Positions 26,941 through 64,000 of a DNA stretch of 64,000 bases are shown piece after piece. How positions within the stretch are numbered: the stretch's first letter is position 1; each line of letters opens with the position of its first letter. The notes under the pieces are model-generated. The model was not told the DNA's origin. It ran no database searches and saw nothing but the letters and a program-made list of their open reading frames with translations. The translations under genes were made by a program, and so were the position numbers. Source of the stretch: Pseudomonas allokribbensis (lineage in GTDB: Bacteria > Pseudomonadota > Gammaproteobacteria > Pseudomonadales > Pseudomonadaceae); assembly GCF_014863605.1 (NCBI RefSeq), contig NZ_CP062252.1:2551001-2615000 (forward strand). Reading direction: 5' to 3'.

Positions 26941-29900
26941 ATGAACCAATTTGCTGCCGATGCGGCGGACGGTCTGTCCGCGATTTCCGAGGCCTTCCCG
27001 CTGACTGCCGCCCAGAGCGACATCTGGCTCGATCAACTGCGTCAGGGGGATTCACCGCTGTATAACATCGGCGGCTACGTCGAGCTGACCGGCCCACTGG
27101 ATCCGGCGCTGATGCAAGCGGCTCTGGAAGGTCTCGTGGCCCGGCACGACGCCATGCGCACGATTCTGTTGCCGGGCGCCGGCCAGCACGGCTTGCCCCT
27201 GCAGCGCTTTGCGCAGTCCTTGCCGACCCCGATGCCAATCCATGACGTTTGCGCGCAGCCCGATCCACAGTCCGCGGCGCGCAGGCTGATTCAGGAACGC
27301 ATCGAGCAGCCGTTCACGCTGGACGGCGGGCCGTTGTTCCGGTTTCTTCTGATCCGTCTCGATGCCGATCATCATTGGTTGTCGATCCTCGCCCATCACC
27401 TGATCGTCGACGGCTGGGGGTTCGGCGAGATGCTCAAGTCGCTGGACGAGATCTATAACGCGCTGGCGCTTGGGCAACAGCCGCCGGACTCGGCACCGTC
27501 CTATGTTGATTTCATCCATGACGATGCGCGTTATTACGAGTCGGCACGCTATACCCACGACCGGACGTACTGGCTGGAAAAGTACCGCAACCTTCCCGAG
27601 CCGTTATTGCTGCCCCGATATCAGGAACGCTTTGCCGGTGCCCCGGCCCCGACCCGGATTTTCTCTCAGGCTTTTCCCGCACGACTGCACGAACGCATGA
27701 AGTACGTGGCTCGCGAATACGGCGGGTCGGCGTTCCATGTGTTGCTGGCAGCCTTGCACGTGTATTTCAGTCGCACCGCCCAGCGTGACGAATGGGTGGT
27801 GGGGGTGCCGCTGCTCAACCGTTCCGGTGCCCGGTTCAAGTCCACGCTCGGGCTGTTCACTCAGGTCAGCGCAGTGCGGATGGGGTTTGGCCGGGCGTTG
27901 TCGTTCGGCCAATTGATCACGGCGATCCGTGACGAATTGAAGCGCGATTTCCGTCATCAGCGTTTTCCGCTGAGCGAAATGAATCGTGCATTGGGCCTGC
28001 TGCGCGAGGATCGCTCCCAACTGTTCGAACTGACGGTGTCCTACGAGCAGGATGTTCACGAGTACCGCTACGGCGAGGCTCAGGCGCGGGTCATCAAGGT
28101 CTCGAACCACGAGGAGGGCACGCCGCTGGCGGTGCATTTGCTCAGCACCCTCAACAACGACAAAGACAGTTTGTACATGGTCTACAACGAAGCCTATTTT
28201 GGCGCCGATGAGATCGAAGCGCTGTCCGGGCGCCTGTTGCTGGTGCTGGAACAGGGCCTGGAGAATGTTGACCTGGCGCTGGATGATTTCAATCTGAGCC
28301 TGCCAGCCGAATCGGCGTTGCTGCAGCAGTGGAATGACACGCGCGCGGATTACCCCAACGAGTTGACCATCCATCAGCGCATCGAAGCGCAAGCGGCGGC
28401 GCGGCCAGAGGCGGTGGCCGCAGAGTTTCAGGGACAACGGCTGACCTATGCCGAGCTGAACCGAAAGGCCAACGCCCTGGCCCATCACTTGATCGGGCTC
28501 GGTGTACGGCCCGATGACCGCGTGGCGCTGGTCGCCCGCCGAGGGCTGGACACGCTGGTCGCGCTGCTGGCGATCCTCAAATCCGGCGCCGGTTACGTGC
28601 CGGTTGATCCGGCCCATCCTGCGGAGCGCTTGAGCTATTTATTGCGCGACAGCGCTCCGGTCGTCGTCTTGACCCAGCGCGATCTGCGCGAACGGCTGCC
28701 GGTGCTGAATGTGCCAGTGATCGACATTGACGCGCGCATCTGGCCGGTCAACGATCTCAACCCCGAGGTCTCGGGCCTGACCACCGCGCATCTGGCCTAC
28801 GTGATCTACACCTCCGGTTCCACCGGCCAGCCCAAAGGCGTGATGGTTGAGCATCAGACCCTGTCGAACCTGATCGATTGGCATTGCACTGCTTTCGATC
28901 TGTGCGCCGGTCGCCACACCTCGAGCCTCGCCGGCTTCGGTTTCGACGCCATGGCCTGGGAAGTCTGGCCCGCGCTGTGTGCCGGTGCGACCCTGCACCT
29001 GGCGCCGTCCCGCGACGGGGGAGAAGACATCGACGCGCTGCTCGACTGGTGGCGTGCGCAACCGCTGGACGTGAGTTTCCTGCCGACCCCGATTGCCGAA
29101 TACGCCTTCAGCCGCCACCTCGAACACCCGACCCTGCGCACGCTGCTGATCGGCGGTGATCGCCTGCGCCAGTTCAATCGCGAGCAGACGTTCGCGGTGA
29201 TCAACAACTATGGCCCGACCGAGGCCACCGTGGTCGCCACCTCGGGCCGAATCGAACCGGGTCGGACGCTGCACATCGGCAAACCCGTGAGCAATGCCAC
29301 GACCTATCTGCTGGATGACCGACAGCGGCCGGTACCGATTGGCGTGGCTGGCGAGCTGTACGTCGGTGGCGCCGGGGTGGCGCGGGGTTATTTCAACCGG
29401 CCGGAGCTGACCGCCGAACGCTTTCTCGACGATCCATTCAGCTGCCAGCCCAACGCGCGGATGTACCGCACCGGCGACCTCGCACGCTGGCGCCCGGACG
29501 GCACTATCGAATACCTGGGCCGCAACGACGATCAGGTGAAAATCCGTGGTGTGCGCATTGAGCCCGGTGAAATCGAAGCCGCGTTGAGCAGCCATGAATT
29601 CGTGCGCGATGCGGTGGTGCAGGTGCGCGACGGGCAGTTACTGGCCTGGTTCACCGAACGCCAGCCGCTGGACATCACACAACTGCATGCCCATCTGCAA
29701 ACCCGTCTACCCAGCGCAATGCTGCCGTCGGCGTACGTGCGCCTGGCGGTGTTGCCGCTGACGGCCAACGGCAAACTGGATCGCCAGGCGTTGCCTGCAC
29801 CGGGACCTGAGGCGTTGATCCGCCGCGAATATGAAGCCCCGCAAGGTGACGTCGAAATCCTCCTGGCGCAGATCTGGGCCGAGGTGCTGCAAGTCGAAAA

Positions 29901-32900
29901 GGTCGGGCGTCACGATCACTTCTTCGAACTGGGCGGGCACTCGTTGCTGGCGGTCAACCTGATCGAGCGCATGCGTCAGCTCGGCATGAGCAGTGATGTG
30001 CGGGTGTTGTTCGGCCAGCCGACGTTGGCGGCACTGGCCGCGTCGGTGGGCACTGGCCGAGAGGTCGAAGTGCCGGCCAACCGCATTCCGCCGGGCTGCA
30101 CGCAAATCACGCCGGACCTGTTGCCGTTGGTAGAACTGGATCAGACCACTCTCGACCGGATCATCGCCACGGTGCCGGGTGGGGCGGCCAACGTGCAGGA
30201 CATTTATCCGCTGGCGCCGTTGCAGGAAGGCATCCTTTATCACCACATCACCGCCGCGCAGGGTGATCCGTACCTGCTGCAATCGCAGCTGGCGTTCGAC
30301 AGTGTCGAGCGGGTCGAGGCCTACGCGGCTGCATTGCGTCAGGTCATGGCGCGGCACGATATCCTGCGCACCGCCGTGGTCTGGGAAGGCTTGACCACAC
30401 CGGTGCAGGTGGTCTGGCGCGAAGCTGAACTGCCGGTGCAGGAAATCACCCTCGATCCGGCCGAGGGCGATGTCCTCGCGCAACTGCACGCGCGTTTCGA
30501 TGCCCGGCGTTATCGCATCGACGTCAGTCAGGCGCCGCTGATCCGGCTGATGTATGCACGCGACCCGGCCCACGGGCGGATCGTGGCGATTCTGTTGTTC
30601 CATCACCTGGCGCTGGATCACATCGCGCTGGAAGTCTTGCGTCATGAAATGCGCGCCAACCTGTTGGGGCTGAGTGAACCGTTGCCGCCGGCGGTGCCGT
30701 ACCGCAATTACGTGGCGCAGACACGACTGGGCGTCAGCGAACAGGAACACGAAGCGTTTTTCCGCGAGATGCTCGCCGACATCGACGAGCCGACCCTGCC
30801 TTTCGGTTTGCAGGACGTGCAGGGCGACGGTCGCGGCATCGACGAAGCCGTGCGAACGCTTGCGCCTGAACTGGACCGGCGCTTGCGCCTTCAGGCGCGG
30901 CAGGCAGGCGTCAGCGTGGCGAGTCTGATTCACCTGGCCTGGGCGCAGGTGCTGGCGGCGACGTCGGGGCAGGAACATGTGGTGTTCGGCAGCGTTTTTA
31001 TGGGCCGCATGCAGGGCGGCGAGGGCGCGGACCGCGCGCTGGGGGTGTTCATCAACACCTTGCCATTGCGGGTGGACATGGACCGGGGCGCGCGCGATGC
31101 GGTGCTGCTCACCCACGCCCGACTGACCGACTTGCTCGGGCACGAACATGCGTCACTGGCGCTGGCCCAGCGTTGCAGCGGGGTCGCGTCACCGGCGCCG
31201 CTGTTCAGTGCGTTGCTCAACTATCGACACACTGACCTTGAGGCGCAGGAAGAGGCGTCGGACCAAGCCTGGCAAGGCATCCAGACCCTGGAGAACGAAG
31301 AACGCACCAACTACCCGATGACCTTGAGTGTCGATGATCTGGGTAGCGCCTTGCAGATCACCACACGGACCCTGATCAACATCGGCGCGCAACGCATCGG
31401 CGACTATGTGCAGACCGCGTTGCAGACGCTGGTGGATGCCCTGGAGCAGACACCACAACAACCGCTGAATCGCTTGCCGATTCTGCCGTTGGCGGAGCTT
31501 GAGCAACTGCTGGTCGGGTTCAATGCCAGCGAAGTCGATTGCCCGCTCGATCAGCCGCTTCAAGTGCTGTTCGAACAGCAGGCGCAACGCAGGCCCGACG
31601 CCATTGCCTTGCAGGCCGGGGATCAACAGCTGACGTATCGCCAATTGAACGAGCAGGCTAACCGTCTGGCGCATCATCTACGCGAGCAGGGTGTGCAGCC
31701 CGATTCTCGGGTGGCGATCTGTGTCGAGCGCAGCCTGGACCTGGTGATCGGCCTGCTCGGCATTCTCAAGGCCGGCGGTGCGTATGTGCCGCTGGACCCG
31801 GACTATCCGCTGGAACGCCTGCATTACATGTTGCAGGACAGCGCGCCGGTGGCGGTGCTGGTGCACGAAGCCACCCGCCATCTGCTGGGCGATCCGGGCG
31901 TGCCGGTCATCGATTTCGACCGTTGCACCTGGCAGGACGCGTCGGCCGATAACCTGCACGTACCGGGTTTGAGCGCTGCGAACCTGGCCTACATGATTTA
32001 CACCTCGGGCTCCACCGGCACGCCGAAGGGCGTGATGATCGAACACCGAAGCGCCTGCAACATGGTGCATTGGGGCTCGCAGATCAGCCCGCCGACCGAG
32101 CACGGCGCGCTGTTGCAGAAGGCGCCGTTCAGCTTCGACAGTTCGGTGTGGGAGATCTTCTGGCCGCTGTGTTCCGGCCTGCGGCTGGTGCTGGCGCGTC
32201 CCGACGGCAACCGCGATTCGGCGTATGTGACCCAGGTGATTCGCGAACGACAGATCACCGTGGTCAAGTTCGTGCCAGCGCTGCTGCAACAGTTCGTCGA
32301 ACAGGACGATGTCAGCCAGTGCACCAGCCTGACCGACGTGCTCAACGGTGGCGGCGAACTGACCGCCGCACTGGCCCGGCGTGTCCGCGAGCGCCTGCCA
32401 TGGGTGCGTCTGCATAACGTTTACGGGCCGACCGAAACCACGGTCGACAGCACCGGCTGGACGCTTGAACCCGATCAATCGGTGCCGGAGGCCGTAGTGC
32501 CAATCGGCAAGGCGTTGAGCAACACCCGTCTCTATGTGCTGGATGCCCACGACCAACCGGTGCCATTCGGCGTCAGTGGTCACCTGCACATCGGCGGGGT
32601 CGGAGTCGCGCGCGGTTATCTGGGACTGCCGCAGATGCAGGCCGAGCGCTTCATCGACAGCCCGTTCGTGGCCGGTGATCGCCTGTACCGCACCGGCGAT
32701 CTGGTGCGCTACCGAGCGGATGGCAATCTCGAATTCCTTGGGCGCAACGACTTCCAGGTCAAGCTGCGTGGCCTGCGTCTGGAACCGGGGGAAATCGAAG
32801 CGCGGCTGATCGAGCATCCAGCGGTGCGTGAAGCGGTGGTGCTGGTGCGGGATGAGCGGCTGGTGGCGTATTTCACCGTGCGTGAAGGCTTCGATGCGCC

Positions 32901-33351
32901 CAGCATCGAAACCTTGCGCGCCCATGTGCTTGAGCGCTTGCCGGAGTACATGGCGCCGGGCGCTTACGTGAAGCTCGATGCGTTGCCCCTGACCCCCAAC
33001 GACAAGGTCGATCGCAAGGCCTTGCCGGCACCGGGGGCAGAAGCGGTGCTCAGTCGTCGTTACGAGGCGCCCGAAGGCGAGGTCGAGATCAGGCTGGCGC
33101 AGATCTGGGCCGAGGTGCTGCAACTGGAGCAGGTCGGGCGCAACGACCACTTCTTCGAACTCGGCGGGCATTCGTTGCTGGCGGTCAGTCTGGTGGCGCG
33201 CATGCGTCAGGCCGGGCTGCACGTCGATGCCCGGACGCTGTTCAGCCAGCCGACCCTGGCTGCTCTGGCGGCTCAGACTTCGGCGCAGTCAACGCAGGTG
33301 GAAGTCCCTCAAACCACCATACCGACGCTCAATCGCAAACGCCGGCTCTGA
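26941..33351 (+). CDS. Lipopeptide NRPS 1: Cs-A-T-C-A-T (modules 1-2)
   Basis: A 2136-residue nonribosomal peptide synthetase. Module 1 begins with a starter C domain (AFPLTAAQSDIW at 18; HHLIVDG at 152-158) that probably N-acylates the first residue with a 3-hydroxy fatty acid. A1 has its A3 motif near 620, the A10 lysine at 945 and the code DAWFLGNVVK (Leu). T1 carries the phosphopantetheine serine at 1001. C2 has HHITAAQGD at 1101-1109, the elongated motif of dual condensation/epimerisation domains, and HHLALDH at 1221. A2 reads DSWKLGVVDK, probably an acidic residue (K278), with NDK at 2020-2022 replacing the usual NGK; T2 serine is at 2078. There is no thioesterase. The C-terminal tail ends TLNRKRRL, a likely docking tail. 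The start ATG has only GAGACGG upstream. NRPS2 follows after 184 bases. Confidence 0.93.
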   Translation: MNQFAADAADGLSAISEAFPLTAAQSDIWLDQLRQGDSPLYNIGGYVELTGPLDPALMQAALEGLVARHDAMRTILLPGAGQHGLPLQRFAQSLPTPMPIHDVCAQPDPQSAARRLIQERIEQPFTLDGGPLFRFLLIRLDADHHWLSILAHHLIVDGWGFGEMLKSLDEIYNALALGQQPPDSAPSYVDFIHDDARYYESARYTHDRTYWLEKYRNLPEPLLLPRYQERFAGAPAPTRIFSQAFPARLHERMKYVAREYGGSAFHVLLAALHVYFSRTAQRDEWVVGVPLLNRSGARFKSTLGLFTQVSAVRMGFGRALSFGQLITAIRDELKRDFRHQRFPLSEMNRALGLLREDRSQLFELTVSYEQDVHEYRYGEAQARVIKVSNHEEGTPLAVHLLSTLNNDKDSLYMVYNEAYFGADEIEALSGRLLLVLEQGLENVDLALDDFNLSLPAESALLQQWNDTRADYPNELTIHQRIEAQAAARPEAVAAEFQGQRLTYAELNRKANALAHHLIGLGVRPDDRVALVARRGLDTLVALLAILKSGAGYVPVDPAHPAERLSYLLRDSAPVVVLTQRDLRERLPVLNVPVIDIDARIWPVNDLNPEVSGLTTAHLAYVIYTSGSTGQPKGVMVEHQTLSNLIDWHCTAFDLCAGRHTSSLAGFGFDAMAWEVWPALCAGATLHLAPSRDGGEDIDALLDWWRAQPLDVSFLPTPIAEYAFSRHLEHPTLRTLLIGGDRLRQFNREQTFAVINNYGPTEATVVATSGRIEPGRTLHIGKPVSNATTYLLDDRQRPVPIGVAGELYVGGAGVARGYFNRPELTAERFLDDPFSCQPNARMYRTGDLARWRPDGTIEYLGRNDDQVKIRGVRIEPGEIEAALSSHEFVRDAVVQVRDGQLLAWFTERQPLDITQLHAHLQTRLPSAMLPSAYVRLAVLPLTANGKLDRQALPAPGPEALIRREYEAPQGDVEILLAQIWAEVLQVEKVGRHDHFFELGGHSLLAVNLIERMRQLGMSSDVRVLFGQPTLAALAASVGTGREVEVPANRIPPGCTQITPDLLPLVELDQTTLDRIIATVPGGAANVQDIYPLAPLQEGILYHHITAAQGDPYLLQSQLAFDSVERVEAYAAALRQVMARHDILRTAVVWEGLTTPVQVVWREAELPVQEITLDPAEGDVLAQLHARFDARRYRIDVSQAPLIRLMYARDPAHGRIVAILLFHHLALDHIALEVLRHEMRANLLGLSEPLPPAVPYRNYVAQTRLGVSEQEHEAFFREMLADIDEPTLPFGLQDVQGDGRGIDEAVRTLAPELDRRLRLQARQAGVSVASLIHLAWAQVLAATSGQEHVVFGSVFMGRMQGGEGADRALGVFINTLPLRVDMDRGARDAVLLTHARLTDLLGHEHASLALAQRCSGVASPAPLFSALLNYRHTDLEAQEEASDQAWQGIQTLENEERTNYPMTLSVDDLGSALQITTRTLINIGAQRIGDYVQTALQTLVDALEQTPQQPLNRLPILPLAELEQLLVGFNASEVDCPLDQPLQVLFEQQAQRRPDAIALQAGDQQLTYRQLNEQANRLAHHLREQGVQPDSRVAICVERSLDLVIGLLGILKAGGAYVPLDPDYPLERLHYMLQDSAPVAVLVHEATRHLLGDPGVPVIDFDRCTWQDASADNLHVPGLSAANLAYMIYTSGSTGTPKGVMIEHRSACNMVHWGSQISPPTEHGALLQKAPFSFDSSVWEIFWPLCSGLRLVLARPDGNRDSAYVTQVIRERQITVVKFVPALLQQFVEQDDVSQCTSLTDVLNGGGELTAALARRVRERLPWVRLHNVYGPTETTVDSTGWTLEPDQSVPEAVVPIGKALSNTRLYVLDAHDQPVPFGVSGHLHIGGVGVARGYLGLPQMQAERFIDSPFVAGDRLYRTGDLVRYRADGNLEFLGRNDFQVKLRGLRLEPGEIEARLIEHPAVREAVVLVRDERLVAYFTVREGFDAPSIETLRAHVLERLPEYMAPGAYVKLDALPLTPNDKVDRKALPAPGAEAVLSRRYEAPEGEVEIRLAQIWAEVLQLEQVGRNDHFFELGGHSLLAVSLVARMRQAGLHVDARTLFSQPTLAALAAQTSAQSTQVEVPQTTIPTLNRKRRL

Positions 33352-33535
33352 GCGACATCGGCGCCGATTCGCGGTTCCCGCGGATCGGCGCCATGACTGG
33401 CCGGTCACGGGTCTTGTCCCCGCTTCCCATGTCAGACACCCAAGCCCCGATGTTTTAGCTTTTCCGGGCTGCGCGTGGCCGCACGGATTCGCCGCTGCGC
33501 GCTCCTTTTTCCCGAATTTACAGCAGGTTACCCCC
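33352..33535 (+). promoter_or_regulatory. NRPS1-NRPS2 spacer with a strong hairpin
   Basis: The hairpin at 33360-33392 has outer arms GGCGCCGAT and ATCGGCGCC and inner arms CGCGG and CCGCG, with one T-G wobble, around TTC. No U-run follows. It is more likely a transcript-processing, stability or partial-attenuation element than an intrinsic terminator. The rest of the spacer shows no gene; the NRPS2 ribosome-binding site (CAGGTT) is weak. Confidence 0.55.
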
Positions 33536-36500
33536 ATGCAATTTCGCGAGCTGATGGCTGTTATTTCCACCCATGCGATCCGCCTTCAACAGGACGATGA
33601 AGACCTGGTCATTCTGGGCAACGACGACGCGCTGGACGACGCGTTGTGGGACAGCCTCGCCAAGCACAAGGCGCAATTGCTGGAACTGGTGGCGAGCCAC
33701 GGTGGCGACTGGTCGAGCCCGGCGCTGCGCATCACCCCGGACATGCTGCCGCTGGTAAAACTGGATCAGCCGGCCATCGACCGCATCGTCGCCACCGTGC
33801 CGGGTGGCGTGGCGAATGTGCAGGACATCTATCCGCTGGCGCCGCTGCAGGAAGGCATGCTGTATCTGCACCTCGCGGCCGGCGAAGGTGATCTGTATGT
33901 GCAACAGGCGCAGTTCACCTTCGACAATCACCAGCGCCTCGACGCATTTGCCCAGGCGTTGCAATGGGTGATCGACCGTCACGACATTCTGCGTACCTCG
34001 TTTGTCTGGGAACGTCTGGACGAGCCGGTGCAAGTGGTCTGGCGCCAGGCACCGCTGGTCTGCGAAGAGGTGCAGCTCGACACCTCCACGGATGTGCTCA
34101 GCCAGTTGCAGGCGCGTTACGACGCCCGTCACTTGCGCCTCGATCTGCAACAGGCGCCGCTGCTGCGCTTGGTCTATGCACGGGATCCGGCGCAGGGACG
34201 GATCGTCGCGTTGCTGCTGTTCCATCACATGATTATCGACCACGTTGCACTGGACGTGGTGCGCCGGGAAATCCAGGCCTGGCTGCAAGGGCAGACTGAG
34301 CTCGTGGCGCCGGCGGTGCCGTTTCGCAATCACCTGGCGCGGGCGCGCATGGCCCTCGATGAACAGGCCCACGAGACGTTCTTCCGCGAGATGCTCGGCG
34401 ATATCGACGAACCGACATTGCCGTGGGGCCTGCAGGATGTTCACGGCGGCGGACAGGATTTCGAAGACGCACAGCTCAGACTCTCTGACGATTTGAACCT
34501 GCGACTGCGCACGCAGGCGCGGCAACTCGGCGTGAGCGTGGCGAGCCTGATGCACCTGGCGCTGGCGCGGGTATTGGGCCAGTTGTCCGGGCGCACCTCG
34601 GTGGTGTTCGGCACCGTGTTGCTGGGGCGGATGGAGGCGGGCGACGGTGGCGAGCAGGCGCTGGGCATGTTCATCAACACCTTGCCGCTGCGGGTCGATG
34701 TCGGCGCGCAAAGCGTTTACGACGGCGTGCTCGCCACACACCGACGGCTGAGCGCCTTGCTCGCCCACGAACAGGCGTCGCTGGCATTGGCCCAGCGTTG
34801 CAGCGCGTTGAGCGCGCAGACACCGTTGTTCAGCGCCATGCTCAATTACCGTCACAGTGCTGTCGGTGATGTCGCCGAGGTGATCGAACTGGCCCCCGGC
34901 GTCCAGGTCCTGAGTGGCAAGGAACCGACCAACTACCCGCTGACCTTGAGCGTCGATGATCTGGGCAGTGGTTTCCGACTGTCCGCCATCGCCCCAATCG
35001 GCATTGGCGCTGAACGGGTTTGCGGTTACGTGCAAACCGCACTCGACGCCTTGCTGAACGCTCTGGAACAGTCGCCCGAGACGCTGATCAACCAGTTGCC
35101 GATTTTGCCAGCGCACGAGCGGCAACAATTGCTGGTGGGTTTCAATGACAGTCGCGTCGATCTCGACCTGGAACAGACCGTTCACAGTCTGTTCGAGGCT
35201 CAGGTCGAGCGCACGCCGCAAGCCATCGCGTTGCAGGCCGATGAGCAGTCTCTGACGTATGTTGAACTCAATGCGCGGGCCAATCGCCTGGCTCACCGAT
35301 TGCGTGAGCTGGGTGTCGGGCCGGATACGCCGGTGGCGATCTGCGTCGAGCGCGGGCCTGAACTGGTGATCGGTCTGCTGGGCATTCTCAAGGCCGGTGG
35401 CGCTTACGTGCCGCTGGATCCGGCCTACCCGGCGGAGCGTCTGAATTACATGCTCAAGGACAGCGCCCCGGTGGCGCTGCTGGCGCACGGCGCGACCCGG
35501 GCGATATTCGAGGCGGGCGGCGTGCCGTTGCTCGATTTCGATCAGGATCACTGGCAGGACTACTCCGAGCACAATCCTCAGGTGCCGGGCCTGAATGCTT
35601 CGAACCTGGCCTACGTGATCTACACCTCTGGCTCCACCGGTACGCCGAAAGGGGTGATGGTCGAGCACCGTGGCCTGGGCAATCTGCTTCATTGGAGTTC
35701 GCAGGTGTGCCCGCCCGTGGCGGACGGCGCCCTGTTGCAGAAAACCCCTTACAGTTTTGATGCTTCGGTCTGGGAGCTGTTCTGGCCGCTGACGGCAGGC
35801 CTGCGACTGGTGCTGGCACGTCCCGATGCGCACTTCGAACCGGCGTATCTGACGCAAGTGGTGCGCGAGCAGCGCATCAGCGTGATCCAGTTCGTCCCGG
35901 CGTTGCTGCAACAGTTCCTCGACGTGGAAGACGTCAGTCAGTGCACCAGCCTTACGGATGTTTTCTGTGGCGGCGGCGAGCTGACGCCAGCGTTGGCCCG
36001 CCAGGTCCGCGAGCGTCTACCGCAGGTTCGCTTGCACAACGTCTACGGCCCGACCGAAACCACCGTCGACAGCACGGTGTGGACGCTGGAGCCGTCGATG
36101 CCCGTGTCGGAAGCGCTGTTGCCCATCGGCCGACCGGTCAGCAACACCCGTTTGTACATTCTCGACGAACAACGGCAACCGCTGCCGATGGGCGTGGCCG
36201 GTGAGCTGTACATCGGCGGCGTGCAGGTGGCGCGCGGCTACTTGAACCTTGCATCGCTCACCGCCGAGCGTTTCCTCGACGATCCGTTCAGCGATCAACC
36301 GAACGCGCGGCTGTACCGCACCGGCGACCTGTGCCGCTATCGAGCTGATGGCAACCTTGAATACCTCGGTCGCAACGACGATCAGGTAAAGATTCGCGGC
36401 TTGCGTATCGAACTCGGGGAAATCCAGGCACGGCTGATTCAACTCGATACCGTACTCGCCGCCGAAGTACTGGTGCGCGAAGACGTGGCCGGCGATCCAC

Positions 36501-39500
36501 GGCTGGTGGCGTACTACACCGGTGAGCCGCTGGACATCGGCGAACTGCGCGGCCATCTGCTGGAGCAGTTGCCGGATTACATGGTGCCGACGGCGTTCGT
36601 CCATCTCGACGCCATGCCCCTGAGCCCCAACGGCAAACTCGACCGCAAGGCCTTGTCGGCCCCGGATCAGAGCGGCCAGTTGCTGCGCAGGTACGAGGCG
36701 CCGGTCGGCGATGTGGAATGTCGCATCGCCGAGATCTGGCAGACCCTGCTGAACGTCGAGCAGGTCGGGCGCCACGACAATTTCTTTGAATTGGGCGGCC
36801 ATTCCCTGTTGGCTGTGAAACTGGTCGAGCGCATGCGCCGGCAGGAATTGAGCTGCGATGTGCGGGTTCTGTTCGGCCGGCCAACCGTGGCGGAACTGGC
36901 GGCAACTCTGGGCGCGTCGTCCAGCGTGCAAGTGCCGGTCAATCGCATCACCCCTGACTGCCAATACATCACGCCAGACCTGCTGCCCCTGGCCTCACTC
37001 GATCAGGCCGGCATCGACCGGGTGCTGGAAAGTGTCCCCGGTGGCGTCGCCAACGTGCAGGATATCTATGCGCTGGCGCCGTTGCAGGCGGGGATTCTGT
37101 ATCACCACATGGCCGCGACTGCCGGTGATCCTTACGTGTTGCAGGCGCAATTCGTGTTTGACGGGATCAAGTCGATCAAGGCCTTTGTGCGCGCCGTCAA
37201 TGTGGTGATCGCGCGCCACGACATCCTGCGTTCCAGCGTGGTCTGGGAAGGCCTCGAAGAGCCGGTGCAAGTGGTCTGGCGGGCGGCGCCGCTGGCGCTT
37301 GAGCGAGTCGATGCCGACCCGCAGGACGGCGATGTGCTGCAACAGATGCAGGCACGTTTCGACCCGCGTCACTATCGTCTGAACCTGGGCCGCGCACCGA
37401 TGATGCGCTTTGCCTACACCGAGGACCCGCAGCAACAACGTTGGGTCGGCATCCTGCTGATGCACCACCTGATGCTCGATCACACCGCGCTGGAAGTGCT
37501 GGTGACCGAGATGAACAGCGTGCTGCACGGTCACGCCGCCGAACTGGCGACCCCGGTGCAGTACCGCAACTATGTCGCGCAGGCACGGCTTGGCGCGGAT
37601 GCCGAGGCGCACGAAGGGTTTTTCCGCGACATGCTCGGCGACATCGATGAGCCGACCCTGGCGTTCGGCGTGCAGGACGTGCATGGCGACGGCAGCACGG
37701 TGGTCGACAGCCAGCTCACGCTGGACACCGCGCTGGCCTTGCGTCTGCGCGAGCAGGCACGCCGGCTCGGCATCAGCGTGGCGAGTCTGGCGCACCAGGC
37801 CTGGGCGCAGGTCCTGGCGCAGCTTAGTGGCCGGGATGAGGTGGTGTTCGGCACGGTACTGCTGGGCCGGATGCAGGGCGGCGAGGGCGCCGACCGGGCG
37901 TTGGGACTGTTCATCAACACCTTGCCGCTGCGCGTCAGCGTGACCGCCACGGCGGTACGCGACAGCGTGCTCGCCACCCATGAACGGCTGGCGCAGTTGC
38001 TCGCGCATGAACAAGCGTCACTGGCGCTGGCCCAGCGTTGCAGCGGGGTTTCGGGGGCGTTGCCGCTGTTCGGCACGTTGCTCAACTATCGCCACAGCGC
38101 ACCGCAGGCTGCCGGCTTGACTCTGGACGGCATTGAATTGCTCAGCTCCCGCGAGCGCAGCAACTATCCGCTGGTGGTCAGCGTCGATGACCTTGGCGAA
38201 GGCTTGCGTCTGAGTGTGCAAGCGGTGCCGGGTATCGATGGTGCGCGGGTCTGCGAGTACATCAATGTTGCTTTCGACAGTCTGGTGCAGGCGCTGGAGC
38301 AGACGCCGCAACTGGGTGTCGATCAGTTGTCGATTCTGCCGCCGGATGAGCGTCGGGAGTTGCTGGTCGGTTTCAATGCCACCCAGCGGGATTACCCGTC
38401 GGGTTCGACGGTTCATGGTCTGTTTGAACAGCACGTGGAACTGCATCCGCAAGCTGTGGCGGCGGTGCATGGCCACACAACGCTGACGTATGAGGAACTG
38501 AATCAACGGGCCAACCGACTGGCCCACCATCTGATCGGGCAGGGCGTGCAGCCGGGCGACCATGTAGCGATCTTGCTACCGCGTTCGCTGGAGTTGTTGG
38601 TCGCGCAACTGGCCATCGTTAAATGCGCAGCGGCTTATGTGCCGCTGGATATCAACGCGCCGGCCGAGCGTCAGGCGTTCATGGTTGAAGATTGCGGGGC
38701 GAAAGCGCTGTTGACCTTGAGCACTGAAACGGTTGATTACGCGGTGCGCCGGATCGATCTGGATGCGCTGCCGTTGGACGCGCAACCGACGCATAACCCG
38801 GACCTGCCGCAGTCTCCAGAATCCGTGGCCTACATCATGTACACATCCGGTTCCACCGGCACGCCGAAGGGTGTGATGGTGCCGCACCGGGCGATCGGTC
38901 GACTGGTGATCAACAACGGTTATGCCGATTTCAACCCACAGGATCGCGTGGCGTTCGCCTCCAACCCGGCGTTCGACGCCAGCACCATGGACGTCTGGGG
39001 GCCGCTGCTCAACGGCGGGCGAGTGGTGGTCATTGATCACGCGACCTTGCTTGATCCGCACGCATTCGGACAGGAATTGGCGACTTCGGGCGCCACGATT
39101 CTGTTCGTCACCACCGCGCTGTTCAACCAGTATGTGCAGCTGATTCCCGAGGCGCTGAAGGGGCTGCGCATCGTGCTCTGCGGTGGCGAACGCGCCGACC
39201 CGGCCGCCTTCCGCCGCTTGCTGGCCGAGGCGCCGGATCTGCGCATCGTTCACTGCTACGGCCCGACCGAAACCACCACCTATGCCACGACGTTTGAAGT
39301 GCGCGAAGTGGCAGAAGATGCCGACAGCGTGCCAATTGGCGGCCCGATCTCCAACACCCAGGTCTATGTACTCGATGCCCGCCAGCAACCCGTGCCGATG
39401 GGCGTGACCGGCGAGTTGTACATCGGCGGCCAGGGCGTGGCGCTGGGCTATCTGAATCGCCCGGACCTGACCGCCGAAAAGTTCCTGCAAGACCCGTTCA

Positions 39501-42500
39501 GCGAGCAACCGGGCGCGTTGCTGTACCGCACCGGCGACCTCGCACGCTGGCTCGCACCGGGCCAACTGGAATGCATCGGTCGTAATGACGATCAGGTGAA
39601 AATTCGCGGTTTCCGCATCGAGCTGGGGGAAATCGAAAACCGTCTGCTGAACTGCGAAGGGGTCAAGGAAGCCATCGTGCTGGCCCGTCAGGACGGTCAG
39701 GAACCGTTACGCCTCGTGGCATATTTCACCGCCGAAGAGGGCGTGGACAGCGCCAGCCTGCGCGAACAATTGCAAGCGCGCCTGCCGGAATACATGGTGC
39801 CCTCGGCCTGGGTGCAGCTCGACGCGTTGCCGCTGAGCAACAACGGCAAGGTCGACCGCAAAGCCTTGCCGCTGCCGGATCAGAGCGCCTGGCTCAGCCA
39901 GGCATACGAAGCCCCGCAAGGCTCGGTGGAAACCGCGCTGGCGCAGATCTGGGCCGATGTCCTGAAGCTGGAAAAGGTCGGTCGCCACGACAACTTCTTT
40001 GAACTGGGCGGCCATTCATTGCTGGCGGTGAGCCTGATCGAGCGCCTGCGCCGGATCGGCCTGAGCACCGACGTGCGCGTGCTGTTCAGTCAACCAACCC
40101 TGGCAGCATTGGCAGCGGCGGTGGGTAGCGGACGCGAAATCGAAGTGCCGGCCAATCGCATTCCTGCTGATTGCACCCACATCACCCCAGACCTGCTGAG
40201 CCTGACCGAACTGGATCAGGCCAGCATCGACCGGATCGTCGCCAGCGTGCCGGGCGGTGCTGCCAATGTGCAGGAAATCTACCCGCTGGCGCCGTTGCAG
40301 GAAGGCATCCTTTATCACCACTTGAGTGCTGAGCAGGGCGACCCGTACCTGCTGCAATCGCGGCTGGCCTTCGACAGTGTCGAGCGTCTGCGCACCTTCA
40401 CCGACACCTTGCAACAAGTCATCGCACGCCACGACATCCTGCGTACCAGCGTTGTCCACGAAGGCCTGGCGACGCCTCATCAAGTGGTGTGGCGCCACGC
40501 CGAACTGGTGATGCAGCACGTAACGCTGGACCCGGCGCAGGGCGACATCCTCGAGCAATTGCACGAGCGCTTCGATGCCCGTCACTACCGCCTCGACATC
40601 AGCCAGGCACCGCTGCTACGCATGGTGTATGCCGAGGATCCGAAACAGCAGCGCGTGGTGGCGATCCTGCTGTCCCATCACCTGATCCTCGATCACACCG
40701 CGCTGGAAGTGATCGTCGAAGAAATGCGCGATGTGATGTTCGGTGAGATCGACCACCTTTCGGCGCCGATCCCCTATCGCAACTACGTCGCCCAGGCACG
40801 CCTGGGGCTCGGCGAGCAGGAGCACGAAACGTTCTTCCGCGAGATGCTCGGTGATATCGACGAGCCGACGCTGCCGCTAGGACTACGGGATGTGCAGGGT
40901 GATGGTCACGGCGTCGAGGAAGCGCTGCAACCGGTGGCGGCGGAACTCAACGGGCGCCTGCGTGAACAGGCGCGGCACCTGGGCGTGAGCGCGGCCAGCC
41001 TGATGCACCTGGCCTGGGCGCAAGTGCTGGGCGTGCTGTCGAACCGGCGCGACGTGGTGTTCGGCACGGTGATGATGGGACGGATGCAGGGTGGCGATGG
41101 TGCCGACCGGGCGCTGGGGGTGTTCATCAACACCTTGCCGCTGCGCATCGATGTCGGCGCCGGCGCGCGCGACGGGGTCAAGGCGACCCACGCACGACTG
41201 ACTGCGCTGCTCGGGCATGAACACGCCTCGCTGGCACTGGCCCAGCGTTGCAGTGGTGTCGCGGCGTCATCGCCGCTGTTCAGTGCCTTGTTCAACTACC
41301 GCCACAGTGCCCCCGCGCAACAGTCGCAGAACGGCCAGGGTATCTGGGAGGGCGTGCAGAAACTCGGTGGTGAAGAACGCACCAACTATCCGCTGACCCT
41401 GAGCGTGGACGATCTGGGCGAAGGGTTTGCCTTGTCGGTTCTGGCGGTCAGCCAGATCGGCGCGCAACGGATTTGCAGTTACATGCACACCGCGCTGGAG
41501 CAACTGGTGCAAGCGCTGGAGCAGACGCCGCAAAAGCCGCTGAACCGTTTGCCGATCCTTTCGACCGCGGAACTGGAGCGTCTAGTCGACGGCTTCAATC
41601 CTCCGGTTACGGCCTATCCCCGTGGCGCAACGATTCACGCAATGGTCGAGGTTCAGGCCGAGCGCAATCCGCATGTCCTCGCGGTGATTCAAGGTGCGCA
41701 ACAGCTGACCTACGGTCAGCTCAATCAGCGCGCCAACCAACTGGCCCGTCATTTGATCGGCCTCGGCGTGCAACCGGACGACCGCGTTGCGCTCTGCGTG
41801 CGTCGCGGCCCGCAGATGCTGGTCGGGTTGCTGGCGATTCTCAAGGCCGGCGCCGGTTATGTACCGGTGGATCCGGCGCATCCGGTGGAACGCATCGCCT
41901 ACCTGTTGCAGGACAGCGATCCGGTGGCCGTGCTCGCACAGGCTTCGACCCGGGAGCTGCTGGGCATGATGCCGGTGATCGATCTGGACAGCGACGCCTG
42001 GCAACACCTGCCCGACAGCAACCCGAAACTGCCGTACCTGACTCCGGCGCACCTGGCCTACGTGATCTACACCTCGGGCTCCACTGGCCAGCCAAAAGGG
42101 GTGATGGTCGAACACGCCACCCTGGAAAACCTCGTGCACTGGCACGCCGAAGCCTTCGACCTGCACGCCGGCAGCCACACCGCCAGCGTTGCCGGGTTCG
42201 GTTTCGATGCGATGGCCTGGGAAGTCTGGCCGGCGCTGTGCGTCGGTGCGACCCTGCACCTGCCGCCGGAATCGGTGAGCAATGAGCATCTGGACGAACT
42301 GCTCGACTGGTGGCGAGCGCAGCCGTTGCAAGTCAGCTTCCTGCCGACTCCGGTGGCCGAATACGCCTTCAGTCGCGAGCTGCAACACCCGACCCTGCGC
42401 ACGTTGCTGATCGGCGGCGACAAGCTGCGCCAGTTCAACCGTGCGCAAACCTTCGCGGTGATCAACAACTACGGCCCGACCGAGGCCACGGTGGTCGCGA

Positions 42501-45500
42501 CGTCCGGCCCGGTGGAAGTCGGCCAGCCGCTGCACATCGGCCGGCCGATGGCCAACGCTCGCATCTATCTGCTTGATGACCAGCAACGTCCGGTGCCGGT
42601 GGGCGTGACGGGCGAGTTGTATGTGGCCGGCGCCGGTGTGGCGCGGGGTTACCTGAACCGTCCCGATCTGACCGCCGAACGCTTCCTCGCCGACCCGTTC
42701 AGCGACCAGCCGCAGGCACGGATGTACCGCACCGGCGACCTCGCGCGCTGGCTGGCGGACGGCAACATCGAGTACCTGGGCCGCAACGACGATCAGGTGA
42801 AACTGCGCGGCGTGCGGGTTGAACTGGGGGAAATCGAAGCCGCGCTGGCCAGCCATCCAGAGGTACAGGACGCGGTGGCGCTGGTTCGTGACGGGCAGTT
42901 GCTGGTGTGGTTCACCGAGCGTGCGCCGGCCGATATCGAAGCCCTGCGCAATCATCTGCAAACGCTTCTGCCGCAAGCCTTGATCCCGGCGGCTTACGTG
43001 CGACTCGACGCCTTGCCGCTGACCGCCAACGGCAAACTCGACCGCAAGGCCTTGCCGGAACCGGATCAGAACGCCTGGCTCAGCCGTGAATACGAAGCCC
43101 CGCAGGGCCCGGTGGAAACCGCACTGGCGCAGATCTGGGCCGATGTCCTGAAACTGGAAAAGGTCGGTCGCCACGACAACTTCTTCGAACTGGGCGGCCA
43201 TTCGCTCCTAGCGGTGAGCCTGATCGAACGCCTGCGTCAGATCGGCCTGAACACCGATGTGCGTGTGCTGTTCAGCCAGCCAACGCTGGCTGCACTGGCC
43301 GAAGCGGTAGGCAGCGGTCGCGAAATCGAAGTGCCGGCCAACCGCATTCCCGTTGGCTGCACCCACATCACCCCGGACCTGCTGAGCCTGGCCGAACTGG
43401 ATCAGCCTAGCATCGACCGGATCGTTGCTACGGTGCCCGGCGGCGCCGCCAACGTGCAGGACATTTATCCGCTGGCACCGTTGCAGGAAGGCATCCTTTA
43501 TCACCACTTGAGCGCGGAGCAGGGCGACCCGTACCTGCTGCAATCGCGGCTGGCCTTCGACAGAGTCGAGCGTGTCGAGAGCTTCGCGGCGGCGCTGCGT
43601 CAGGTCATGGCGCGCCACGACATCTTGCGCACGGCGGTGATCTGGCAAGAACTGGCCGAACCGATGCAAGTGGTCTGGCGTCACGTCGAATTGCCGGTGC
43701 AGGAAATCGTGCTCGCCCCGGCGGATGGCGACGTCCTCGAGCAGTTGCACGGGCGTTTCGATGCCCGACACTACCGCCTCGACATCAGTCAGGCACCCTT
43801 GCTGCGTCTGGTGTATGCCCGTGATCCGGCTCACGACCGGGTGGTCGCGATGTTGCTGTTCCACCATGTCGTGATGGATCACACCGCGCTGGACGTGGTG
43901 CAGCACGAAATGCTCGCCTGCCTGCAAGGGCGCGAAGCCTCGCTGGGCGCGGCCGTGCCTTACCGTAACTACGTGGCGCAGGCGCGGCTGGGTGTTAGCG
44001 AGCAGGAGCACGAAGCGTTCTTCCGCGACATGCTCGGCGACATCGACGAGCCGACCCTGCCGTTCGGCTTGCAGGATGTACAAGGTGACGGTCGCGACAT
44101 CGAGGAAACGCAACAGGCCCTGACCGCCGCCACCGGTCAGCGTCTGCGCAGCCTCGCGCGGCAACTGGGCATCAGCGTGGCCAGCCTGTTCCACCTCGCG
44201 TGGGCGCAGGTGCTGGCGGCGACGTCCGGGCAGGAGCGCGTGGTGTTCGGCACGGTGCTGATGGGCCGGATGCAGGGCGGCGAGGGGGCCGACCGGGCGT
44301 TGGGGATGTTCATCAACACCTTGCCGCTGCGGGTCGATCTGGGGGCAACCCCGGTGCGCGAAGGGGCTCGGGCGACACATGCGCGTCTCAGTGCGCTGCT
44401 CGGCCACGAGCACGCGTCACTGGCGCTGGCCCAGCGTTGCAGCGGTGTGGCTGCGCCATCGCCACTGTTCAGTTCGATGCTCAACTACCGCCACAGCGCC
44501 GACGAGGCGCAACAGCAAAACGTGCGTCAGGCCTGGCAAGGCATCGAGACCCTGAGCAGCGAAGAACGCACCAACTATCCGTTGAGTCTGGGCGTCGATG
44601 ATCTGGGCAATGGGTTCGTCCTCACCGCCATGACCTCGGCGAGCATCGGTTCGCAGCATATCTGTGACTACATGCAGACCGCGCTGGAGAACCTCGCGGA
44701 TGCCCTGGAACAAGCCCCGGATCAGCCGCTGAATCGCTTGCCGATCCTTGTAGGCGCAGAACGTCAGCAGGTGCTGTACGACCTTAACGTCACCGGCACC
44801 GCAGACGATCTGCAGCAAACCGTTCACGCACTCTTCGAAGCGCAAGTACAACGCACGCCACATGCCATCGCGTTGCAGGCCGGTGAACAGCGGCTGACCT
44901 ACGCCGAACTCAACGCACAGGCCAACCGTCTGGCCCATCACCTGCGCGAACTGGGCGTGGGGCCGGATGCACGGGTGGCGATCTGCGTCGAGCGCGGGCT
45001 GGAACTGATGGTCGGTCTGCTCGGCATTCTCAAGGCAGGTGGTGCGTATGTGCCGCTGGACCCGGCATACCCGGCGGAGCGTCTGGATTACATGCTCAAG
45101 GACAGCGCCCCGGTGGCCGTGCTGGTCCATGGGGCGACTCGTGAGTTGCTGGGCGAGAGCACTGCGCTGGTGATCGATCTGGACCAGGCTCACTGGACAT
45201 TCAACCCGGATGACAATCCGCAAGTGCCGAACCTGAGCGCTTCGAACCTGGCCTACGTGATCTACACCTCCGGTTCGACCGGTGCGCCGAAGGGCGTGAT
45301 GGTCGAGCATCGCGGCGTGGGCAATCTGTTGCACTGGAGTTCGCAACTGTGTCCTGCCGTGACGGACGGCGCCCTGTTGCAGAAAACCCCGTTCAGTTTC
45401 GATGCCTCGGTCTGGGAGCTGTTCTGGCCATTGAGCGCCGGGCTGCGTCTGGTGCTGGCGCGTCCTGACGGGCACCGCGAGCCGGCGTATCTGGCGCAGG

Positions 45501-48500
45501 TGATTCGTGAGCAGCGGATCAGCGTGATCCAGTTCGTGCCGGTGCTGCTGCAACAGTTCCTCGAGCAGGACGACGTCAGCCAGTGCAGCAGCCTCACCGA
45601 TGTGTTCTGTGGCGGCGGAGACCTGACGCCAGCGCTGGCGCGTCTGGTTCGTGAGCGTTTGCCGCAGGTGCGTTTGCACAACGTCTACGGCCCGACTGAA
45701 GCGACGGTCGACAGCACGGTGTGGACGCTGGAACCGTCGATGTCGGTGCCGGACAGCGCGTTGCCGATCGGACGGCCGATCAACAACACTCGTCTTTATG
45801 TACTCGACGCCGCCGAACGGCCGGTGCCGATGGGCGTCATCGGTCAATTGTTCATTGGTGGTGCCGGGGTTGCGCGGGGCTATCTGGGGTTGCCGCAGTT
45901 GATGGCGGAACGGTTTATCCCGAGCCCGTTCGTGGCCGGCGATCGGCTGTACGCCACGGGCGACCTGGTGCGCTACCGCGCCGATGGCCAGCTCGAATTC
46001 ATCGGGCGCAACGACTTCCAGGTCAAACTGCGTGGCCTGCGCCTGGAGTTGGGTGAAATCGAAGCCCAACTGCTCAGCCATCCGGCGCTGCGTGAAGCCG
46101 TGGTGCTGGTGCGTGAGGAGCGTCTGGTGGCGTACTTCACCTGGCACGTCGAAGCCGGCCAACCGGGGATCGAGTCGTTGCGCGAACACTTGCTCGCACG
46201 CTTGCCCGATTACATGGTGCCGTCAGCCTTTGTCGCACTCGACAGCCTGCCGCTGAGCCCCAATGGCAAGGTGGATCGCAAGGCGCTGCCGGCCCCCGGT
46301 GCCGAGTCGGTGCTGGTGCGTGAATACGAGCCTCCCGTCGGTGAGACCGAAGTCGCCCTGGCCCGGTTGTGGGCCGAGGTGTTGAAGGTGGAGCGGGTCG
46401 GACGTCACGATCACTTCTTTGAGCTGGGCGGGCACTCGCTGCTGGCGGTGAGCCTGATCGAGCGCATGCGTCAGATAGGCCTGAGCACCGATGTGCGCGT
46501 GCTGTTCAGTCAGCCGACCCTGGCCGCGCTGGCCGCCGCCGTGGGCAGCGGGCGGGAAATCGAAGTGCCGGCCAACCGCATCGCAGCCAATTGCACCCGC
46601 ATCACCCCGGACATGCTGACGCTGGTCACGATGGATCAAGCCGCCATCGACCGCGTGGTGTCCAGCGTGCCGGGCGGCGCCGCCAACGTGCAGGACATCT
46701 ATCCGCTGGCGCCGTTGCAGGAAGGCATTCTTTATCACCACTTGAGTGCGGGAGAAGGCGATCCGTACCTGCTGCAATCGCGGCTGGCGTTCGACAGCCT
46801 TGAACGTCTGCAGCGTTTCCGTGCGGCGTTGCAACACGTCATCGACCGCCATGACGTTCTGCGCACGGGTGTGGTGTGGGAAGGCTTGAGCGTGCCGGTG
46901 CAGGTCGTGTGGCGCCAGGCTGAACTGGTGGTGCAGGAGGTCCTGCTCGATCCAGCGGCAGGCGACATTCTTGAGCAGTTGCACACCCGGTTCGATGCCC
47001 GGCATTACCGTCTCGACATCGCCCAGGCACCGTTGCTGCGACTGGTGTATGCCCGCGATCCGGCCCGTGGCCGGGTGGTGGCGATGCTGCTGTTCCATCA
47101 CATCGTGCTCGACCACACCGCGCTGGAAGTGGTGCGCCATGAAATGCAGGCGTACCTGCGCGGGGCTGACGAGCCGTTGCCGGCGGCGGTGCCGTACCGC
47201 AACTACGTGGCGCAGGCGCGTCTGGGCGTCACGGAGCAGGAGCATGAGGCATTTTTCCGCGACATGCTCGGCGACATCGACGAGCCGACCCTGCCGTTCA
47301 GCCTGCGCGATGTGCGCGGCGACGGACGCGGCATCGAGGAAGTGCAGCAGGTACTCGACAACGGCCTGAACTTGCGCCTGCGCAGTCAGGCGCGGCAGAT
47401 GGGCATCAGCGTGGCCAGCCTGTTCCACCTTGCGTGGGCCCAGGTACTGGCGGCGACTTCCGGGCAGGACAATGTGGTGTTCGGCACCGTGCTGATGGGC
47501 CGGATGCAGGGCGGCCAGGGCGCCGACCGTGCGCTGGGCATGTTCATCAACACCTTGCCGTTGCGGGTCGATCTGGGCGAGACCCCGGTGCGCGAGGCGG
47601 TCAAGGCGACGCATCAGCGTCTCACCGCGCTGCTGGGGCATGAGCATGCTTCGTTGGCACTGGCCCAGCGTTGCAGCGGGATTGCGGCGCCGTCGCCGTT
47701 GTTCAGCGCGATGCTCAACTATCGACACAGCCACGGCGCAGAGCATTCGGACAGCGTGATTCAGGCCTGGCAAGGCATCGAGACCCTGAGCAGTGAAGAA
47801 CGCACCAACTACCCGCTGAGCCTGAACGTCGATGACCTGGGCAACGGTTTCTCGCTGATAGCCATGGTGCCGACGGACATCGGCGCGCAGCGGATTTGCG
47901 GTTACATGCAAACGGCGTTGTTGGCATTGGTGGAGGCGCTGGAACAGGCACCGACGCAGGCGATGAATCGCTTGCCGATTCTTGAGGGAGCAGAGCGGCA
48001 GCGCTTGTTGTTCGACTTCAACGCTACCGATGTTGGTTATGACCTTCAGCAAAGCATCCACGGTTTGTTCGAGGCGCAGGTCTTGCGCACGCCGCAGGCT
48101 GTGGCGGTGCTCTCAGGCGAACAGCGGCTGAGCTATGCCGAGCTGAACGCTCGGGCCAACCGTTTGGCGCATCACTTGCGCGGACTGGGCGTTGGCCCGG
48201 ATGCGCGGGTGGCGATCTGCGTCGAGCGGGGGCTGGAGATGGTGGTCGGGTTGCTGGCGATTCTGAAGGCCGGTGGCGGTTATGTGCCGCTGGATCCGGC
48301 GTATCCGCTGGAACGTCTGGCTTACATGCTGGAGGACAGTGCACCGTCTGCGGTGTTGGTGCAGGGTTCGACTCGCTCGTTGCTGGGTGAGGTGTCGGTG
48401 CCGATGGTCGATCTCGATCACCAAACCTGGCAATCGCTGTCGGCCGATAACTTTTCCGTCGATGGACTGACTCCGCAGCACACGGCTTACGTGATCTACA

Positions 48501-49800
48501 CCTCGGGCTCCACCGGTCAGCCGAAAGGCGTGATCAACGAGCACAGCGGGGTGGTCAACCGCTTGCTGTGGATGCAGGACGCTTATCGCCTGACGGCTGA
48601 GGACGTGGTGCTGCAGAAAACCCCGTTCAGTTTCGACGTCTCGGTCTGGGAGTTCTTCTGGCCGTTGATGACCGGCGCCCGACTGGTGATGGCTCGTCCG
48701 GGTGGCCACAAGGATCCGCTGTATCTGAGCGAAGTGATCGAGCGTGAACGCATCACCACGCTGCACTTCGTGCCGTCGATGCTCGACGTGTTCCTCGCCC
48801 ATGGCGAAACCGCACGTTGCAACGGTTTGCGTCAGGTGATGTGCAGCGGTGAAGCGTTGCCGGGCAGTCTGGTGCGGCGCTTCAAGCAGCAATTACCGGG
48901 CAGCGGCTTGCACAACCTGTACGGCCCGACCGAAGCGGCAGTGGACGTTACCGCATGGGATTGCGCCGGGCCGTTGGAGCTAACGCCAGACAACACGCCC
49001 ATCGGCAAACCGATCGCCAACACCCGCATGTACATCCTCGATGCCCAGCAACAACCGGTGCCGCAAGGCGTGGTCGGCGAGCTGTACATCGGCGGGGTAC
49101 AAGTGGCTCGCGGTTACCTGAATCGTCCTGAACTCAGCGCCGAACGTTTCCTTCAGGATCCATTCCAGCCGAACGGCCGGATGTACCGCACCGGCGACGT
49201 CGCCCGTTATCTGGCCGATGGCAACATCGAATACCTGGGCCGCAACGACGATCAGGTGAAGATCCGTGGCCTGCGCATCGAACTCGGTGAAATCCAGTCT
49301 CGCCTGACCGACATCGGTGGCGTGCAAGAAGCGGCGGTGCTGGCCCGAGAAGATGTGCCGGGAGACAAACGCCTGGTGGCCTATTACACCGGCGCACGGC
49401 TGGAAATCGACGTGCTGCGCGGTCATTTGCTGGAGCACCTGCCGGATTACATGGTGCCGGCGGTATTCGTGCACCTGGATGCGCTGCCACTGAGCCCCAA
49501 CGGCAAACTCGACCGCAAGGCACTGCCGGCACCCGATCAAGCGTCTGTGATCACTCGCGAATACGAAGCCCCGGTCGGCGAAGTGGAAATTCTCCTCGCC
49601 GGGCTCTGGGCCGAATTGCTCAACGTGGAACGGGTAGGGCGGCACGACAACTTTTTTGAACTGGGCGGACACTCATTGCTGGCGGTCAGTCTGATCGGCC
49701 GGTTACGTCAGGAAGGCATGGAAGCCGACGTCAGGGCGTTGTTCGAACAACCGACCCTGGCCGGTTACGCCGCAATTACGGAAAGAATGGAGATCGTCCT

Positions 49801-49804
<4 letters not shown>
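33536..49804 (+). CDS. Lipopeptide NRPS 2: five C-A-T modules (modules 3-7)
   Basis: A 5422-residue synthetase. Residues 1-52 are an acidic TubC_N-type docking domain (ELMAVISTHAIRLQQDDED). Five C-A-T modules follow; A3 motifs lie near residues 693, 1766, 2842, 3907 and 4985, and T-domain serines at 1090, 2161, 3223, 4301 and 5380. Codes read by eye are DAWQFGVVD (Gln, module 3), DAMFLGCTY (probably Val/Ile, module 4), DAWFLGNVV (Leu, module 5), DAWQFGVVD (Gln, module 6) and DVWHMSLVD (Ser, module 7). All C domains have the HHxxxDH core, and all carry the HH-x5-GD dual C/E motif except that C3 reads LHLAAGEGD. The ATG 33536 begins the docking domain; the longer frame to 33227 overlaps NRPS1 out of frame. 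The tail ends TERMEIVL. The stop overlaps the next start (GTGA). Confidence 0.93.
48040..49675 (+). repeat. A-T cassette copy 1 (module 7)
   Basis: This segment aligns without gaps to 57741-59376 at a constant offset of 9701 bases. Runs of exact identity include 48074-48321 (248 bases), 48518-48663 and 48830-49011 (182 bases). It spans the adenylation and thiolation domains of the serine module, but not its C domain. It is a product of intragenic duplication or gene conversion, not a mobile element. Confidence 0.85.

Positions 49805-64000
<14,196 letters not shown>

Follow-up and report, generated by a model that had tools for sequence, protein, structure and literature searches.

A stretch of a Pseudomonas genome that had been read as encoding a new lipopeptide very probably carries a complete gacamide/cocoyamide-type cluster, in which the synthetase genes gamABC are accompanied by pleC, luxR1, pleA, pleB and luxR2. 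On this reading of the sequence the assembly line is real and of an already described kind, not a new one: gacamide/cocoyamide (11:5) was published in 2019. Few gacamide-type producers are known, and this genome is one more complete example; correcting the idea of a new xantholysin spares the effort of a re-discovery.

The window—the whole stretch of 64,000 nucleotides that was analysed—corresponds to bases 2551001–2615000 of a genome that forms a single contig of 6,565,027 bases. It contains three NRPS genes arranged head to tail, all on the plus strand, whose A domains number 2, 5 and 4, with T motifs in the same numbers. The gamA-like gene A (26941–33351; open frame of 2,136 codons) encodes modules 1–2, arranged as starter C–A(Leu)–T and C(dual)–A(Asp/Glu)–T. 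Modules 3–7, with predicted specificities Gln, Ile(Val), Leu, Gln and Ser and with C3–C7 of the dual E/C type, fall in the gamB-like gene B (33536–49804; about 5,420 codons). The gamC-like gene C (4,882 codons) starts at 49801, runs through the end of the window at 64000 and ends at 64449, so that its final 449 bases lie beyond the window; it encodes modules 8–11, predicted for Leu, Leu, Ser and Ile(Val), and tandem thioesterases. The long open frames and ordered domains rule out chance as the source of this layout. A whole-genome Pfam search placed 11 condensation domains at genome positions 2577989–2611945, within the studied stretch, and all 11 modules retain their A, T and C motifs within open frames. 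The original prediction of three collinear NRPS genes in a 2-5-4 arrangement, with 11 A domains, a starter C domain and tandem thioesterases, was found in full, and the 11-residue lipopeptide that it foresaw is supported. The start of gene B is probably better placed at 33536, where its homologue P0143 begins (98% identical over 91% of 1,200 residues compared, among the matches listed). This start leaves 184 bases between genes A and B; a gap of 150–300 bp is printed for such clusters (PMC9948697).

Published motif rules were applied to the condensation domains. C1 (HHLIVDG) sits at the N terminus of gene A with no preceding module, which is the position of a starter C domain. C2–C8 and C11 combine HHxxxDH with the secondary motif that dual E/C domains have at their N terminus, and C9 and C10 (HHIISDG) are of the LCL type. 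The secondary histidine motif of C3 (window positions about 33830–33900) reads LYLHLAAGEGD, with LH instead of HH, in all four gacamide-type genomes and LYLY in P0143. LH is a doubtful sign of an idle domain and an L residue 2, as two of five other lipopeptide synthetases also have LH (P0217 and P0227; HH in P0121, P0213 and P0214), and published work gives no clear rule. Gene C begins with a TubC_N docking domain and ends with two PF00975 thioesterase stretches, in which motif reading places the nucleophiles at GWSFG (62974, TE1) and GHSFG (63850, TE2), together spanning 62974–63864 on the plus strand.

The flanking genes complete the cluster. Upstream, on the minus strand, lie a pleC-like gene for an outer-membrane efflux protein of the OprM/TolC type (24179 to about 25600, start not fixed; Pfam PF02321 OEP in two stretches, E = 7e-53) and luxR1, a LuxR-family regulator gene divergent from the NRPS genes (25654–26448; Pfam GerE, E = 2.8e-8). 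Downstream of gene C, in window numbering, follow the MacA-like pleA (64504–65664), the MacB-like pleB (65661–67625) and, on the minus strand, a second LuxR-type gene, luxR2 (67690–68526). The resulting order, pleC–luxR1–NRPS–pleAB–luxR2, is that of Pseudomonas lipopeptide clusters in print. Genes for a PCu(A)C copper chaperone and an SCO1/SenC-like protein (22938–24022, minus strand) adjoin the efflux gene of the cluster.

Specificity codes were read on the GrsA frame. Positions 1, 5, 8 and 9 share the Leu code DAWSLGNVVK, the fourth letter of which lies beside an alignment gap; position 2 has DSWKLGVVDK; positions 3 and 6 have DAWQFGVVDK; positions 4 and 11 share the Ile-type code DAMFLGCTYK; and positions 7 and 10 have DVWHMSLVDK. 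As the generic residue meanings of such codes were our assumption, we calibrated them on entolysin-, xantholysin- and amphisin-type clusters, whose family labels are our own reading. In G127 and G190 the codes at positions 3–14 reproduce the published entolysin order. G200 and G110 are lines of the 2-8-4 type with Ser at position 7 of 14, the place that the 14:8 xantholysin ring requires; the full xantholysin residue order is here a presumed one. G312 reads as a published undecapeptide, with DSWKLGVVDK as its second code (Asp2 there) and DAMFLGCTYK as its tenth (Val10 there). Given the same code opposite Asp2 in G312, residue 2 here is probably Asp, with Glu possible. DAMFLGCTYK is also the code that ends entolysin-type lines (Ile14), with Val again possible. 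The predicted peptide is Leu-Asp(Glu)-Gln-Ile(Val)-Leu-Gln-Ser-Leu-Leu-Ser-Ile(Val); the 11 residues originally called by eye agree with these codes, and their order holds. With Asp2, Ile4 and Ile11 and a 3-OH-C10 chain, the predicted product is C66H115N13O19 (monoisotopic mass 1393.8432, in silico). Glu2 combined with one Val (Val4) yields the identical formula in silico.

Gacamide A/cocoyamide A, encoded by gamABC in P. fluorescens Pf0-1, as loci Pfl01_2211–2213, and in Pseudomonas sp. COW5, has 11 residues, a 5-residue ring and 7 modules on the first two synthetases (PMC12948218), a tandem thioesterase on gamC and, with a 3-OH-C10 acyl chain, the composition C66H115N13O19 (PMC9431178). The window has 11 modules, 7 of them on NRPS-A and NRPS-B (2 + 5 + 4 over the three genes), a tandem thioesterase, a contiguous cluster flanked by luxR/pleC and pleAB, and that same composition for the predicted peptide with Asp2, Ile4 and Ile11; these features show no difference between the two. 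As the formulae are equal, Leu8, which had been put forward as a mark setting this peptide apart from known members, distinguishes nothing. The match is one of length, layout, formula and relatedness, with the type cluster known here by its published description. No row named Pf0-1 appeared among the best 80 of 110 relatives in a scan of named genomes (best identity 80%; the scan may omit records very near the window), nor among the best 120 of 808 and the best 120 of 1,150 protein matches, which are 90% cluster representatives inside one of which Pf0-1 may sit. The relatives named in the genome scan and among the best 120 of 808 protein matches of gene A are overwhelmingly Pseudomonas. With respect to the P. 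koreensis subgroup, expected for a gacamide/cocoyamide producer, relatives of gene A at 90–91% among those 120 matches include P. bananamidigenes and P. glycinae.

In the biosynthesis that we propose, the starter C domain would attach a 3-hydroxy fatty acid to Leu1, and the line would then add Asp(Glu), Gln, Ile(Val), Leu, Gln, Ser, Leu, Leu, Ser and Ile(Val) in order. Dual E/C domains would invert residues 1–7 and 10, and the LCL domains C9 and C10 would leave residues 8 and 9 in the L form. The thioesterases would then free the product by joining Ser7 to the C-terminal residue 11 in a lactone, which closes a 5-residue ring, and PleABC would export the lipopeptide as a swarming surfactant under Gac/Rsm and LuxR control. 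Module order, starter position, codes, C-domain types, thioesterases and the export and regulator genes are read from the sequence. Ser7 is the probable lactone residue, as in the original prediction, for closure at Ser7 would give the 5-residue ring known from gacamide and closure at Ser10 a two-residue ring. For gacamide itself, predictions from E/C domains agree with the solved configuration (PMC9431178). E/C domains are idle in several other lipopeptide families (PMC9431178 among the sources), so the D/L pattern given here is a prediction. In Pf0-1, gacamide is a swarming surfactant that needs gamABC, pleA, pleC and Gac/Rsm control (PMC11237744, PMC9578434).

The tandem-thioesterase region was searched against 398 genomes of the genus, including the window's own; 142 of the 398 gave a match with E no higher than 1e-100. 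Apart from the genome of the window, three were 93% identical or more (G029, G084 and G353). These three, of 397 other genomes, have the 2-5-4 layout, identical codes and proteins that are 93–97% identical. The core from A1 to pleB (window 28301–67625) shares 89–95% identity with each of these three genomes. For the flanks, the luxR genes and the starter C domain, identity is 92–98% with G029 and 81–88% with G084 and G353, reaching 93% at the edge on the SCO1 side. The same pairing of species emerges from four housekeeping loci, with 97.0 and 97.1% within and 94.6–95.1% between pairs; parE and rpoB were compared on both strands for these identities and dropped from the site-pattern test, in which the G029 loci were apparently in opposite orientation (49–52% identity). 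G253 and G016 were left out of the final comparison of core and flanks. Whereas the flanks, luxR genes and starter C follow the species pairs, the NRPS core is almost star-like between species, with discordant site patterns of 816:248:240 in the core and 870:28:31 in the flanks. The core pattern could come from exchange between species or from gene conversion. We do not take the discordant sites as decisive proof of inter-species recombination, as parallel changes can arise on the core's longer terminal branches; this objection is our own rough estimate.

These comparisons also bear on whether the product might be a gacamide congener, a minor variant with another residue or acyl chain such as Glu2, Val4/Val11 or a different fatty acid. 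Promiscuity is described for Asp/Glu and Ile/Val domains (PMC9948697). The starter C is 98% identical to that of G029 and only 84% identical to those of G084 and G353, against 91–98% for the other domains, and acyl preference could therefore differ. However, the residue codes are identical across all four gacamide-type clusters and the divergence of the starter C tracks that of the flanking genes, and we regard a congener as possible but unlikely next to gacamide itself.

Somewhat less likely again is a silent or non-functional cluster. The gacamide cluster of Pf0-1 is reported to have been silent until its defective gacA was complemented. Here, the intact motifs of the 11 modules in open frames argue against such a state, as does a GacA-type regulator frame in the same genome (G000:C1:3632799-3633434) that scores above the family cut-off and has no stops, although it may carry a point mutation. 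A candidate control element lies in the window itself. The sequence CAAGGATG, at 26457–26464 on the minus strand, stands directly ahead of the luxR1 start codon in all four gacamide-type genomes. We take CAAGGATG to be an RsmA-type motif, which would fit Rsm control, and it is a possible Rsm site. A second GGA lies beside it in the other three gacamide-type genomes and is absent from the window's own. Across the window RsmA-type motifs number 16, against 27 expected by chance; because they are rarer than chance, only the position before luxR1 is remarked on.

Among other families, entolysin (14:5, P. entomophila) has the same ring size, and its last nine positions are similar to those predicted here; the last nine residues and ring of gacamide are likewise said to resemble entolysin, and most gacamide A domains to be homologous to those of amphisin (PMC9948697). 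The C-domain types of gene C (E/C, LCL, LCL, E/C) would also yield the configuration printed for entolysin (D-Ser10, L-Val11, L-Leu12, D-Ser13). However, entolysin has 14 residues, against 11 modules here, and entolysin-type clusters follow the starter gene with 8 + 4 modules, carry different codes and are less closely related in their domains. The amphisin family (11:9) shares 11 residues, a close starter gene and close A domains, but differs in its 2-4-5 layout and Thr3 (in G312) and its 9-residue ring (PMC12948218), where the window has 2-5-4 and Gln3. G203, which we read as a member of the bananamide family (8:6), supplies, for modules 1, 2 and 6, the closest non-gacamide A and C domains (82–97% among 11 comparator clusters); bananamides differ in having 8 residues and Thr3, and G203 shows 2, 3 + 1 and 2 modules, its middle gene being split across two frames. 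The comparison set every A and C domain of the window, 11 of each, against those 11 comparator clusters. G066, G313 and G335 (3-5 lines), G168 (a 4-4 line) and G346 (cut off by its contig) were used in it only, and G188, also a 4-4 line, was dropped. For all 22 domains the best non-gacamide relative is of the bananamide or amphisin type, the two types that stand nearest to gacamide in print as well (PMC9948697), and no entolysin- or xantholysin-type domain is among the best three non-gacamide relatives of any of them in these 11 comparators.

The idea that the window encodes a new, short xantholysin-like lipopeptide, derived by module deletion from a 14-module line, is very improbable: residues 3–7 (Gln-Ile/Val-Leu-Gln-Ser) do resemble xantholysin and the xantholysin-type G200 and G110, but xantholysin (14:8) has 14 residues and an 8-residue ring, the Gln and Val codes of xantholysin- and entolysin-type clusters differ (DAWQVGVVDK, DALWMGGTFK), and we rejected membership in the xantholysin family on the layout and on the relatedness of all 22 domains, more distant from xantholysin among the 11 comparators; layout, length and predicted composition match gacamide/cocoyamide (11:5) instead. 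The comparisons first drawn on to support it also need correction, for print gives xantholysin as 2-8-4, not 2-7-5 (PMC3656897), and MDN-0066 as 8 residues (8:6), not as an 11-mer (PMC12948218).

Within the gacamide-type cluster, some A domains appear to have a history separate from that of their neighbours. The Ser A domains of module 7 (48053–49583) and module 10 (57754–59284; both on the plus strand, located to a resolution of 30-codon bins) appear homogenised by gene conversion that stays within the A domain. We examined 5 of the 55 module pairs of gacamide-type lines, in four genomes, and 8 pairs of entolysin-type lines. The DNA of the module 7 and 10 A domains is 93.3, 90.5, 93.0 and 93.5% identical within the four genomes and 88.5–91.9% identical between orthologues; the value of 90.5 (G029) falls inside the orthologue range, which speaks against a simple reading. 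Around A3, the 17 bins that cover codons −150 to +359 hold 1,530 sites and 0 fixed differences between the two modules, and the +360 bin has 1 in 90; outside, fixed differences take up 177 of 516 sites ahead of −150 and 91 of 263 from +390 on. Moreover, 50 biallelic sites carry a variant that is private to one genome and common to both of its modules. This pattern is what repeated conversion of A domains predicts.

The Ile-type modules 4 and 11 (A3 motifs at 38846 and 61426) give a weaker pattern, with 29 fixed differences and 26 shared variants (17 of the 26 from G353), and within-genome identities of 85.7, 86.7, 87.0 and 90.8% that are not above the orthologue range of 87.1–91.3%. Among the control pairs, 8/9 has 134 fixed differences and 6 shared variants, 3/6 has 229 and 6, and 1/5 has 246 and 1. 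In two genomes with entolysin-type lines, the Ser10/13 domains are 93.7 and 97.5% identical within a genome, against 94.2–95.0% between orthologues; among the 8 pairs, Val4/7/11 and Gln6/9 are near orthologue values and Leu8/12, Leu5/8 and Gln3/6 are not.

Taken jointly, we think it likely that A domains that share a specificity but lie on different genes (Ser7/Ser10 and, more weakly, Ile4/Ile11) are kept alike within each species by repeated conversion, with a tract that covers the A domain alone, from about −150 to +360 codons around A3, and leaves the neighbouring C and T domains separate; that Ser10/Ser13 and Val4/7/11 of entolysin-type lines may follow; and that this accompanies a star-like core beside paired flanks and starter C. 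Concerted evolution in NRPSs is in print (PMC4256081, which includes syringopeptin, and PMC9205934). A literature search that covered few subscription journals returned no title on A-domain conversion in Pseudomonas cyclic lipopeptides such as gacamide. If general, the process would mark the natural limits of A-domain exchange, with a bearing on where natural and engineered domain swaps work, and it would mislead histories of these lipopeptides that are based on duplication.

The same genome holds a second large NRPS locus (2084013–2124863) with several HHxxxDG domains. Its codes presumably specify Ser, Asp, Thr and amino or hydroxyamino residues, and it is perhaps a siderophore cluster.
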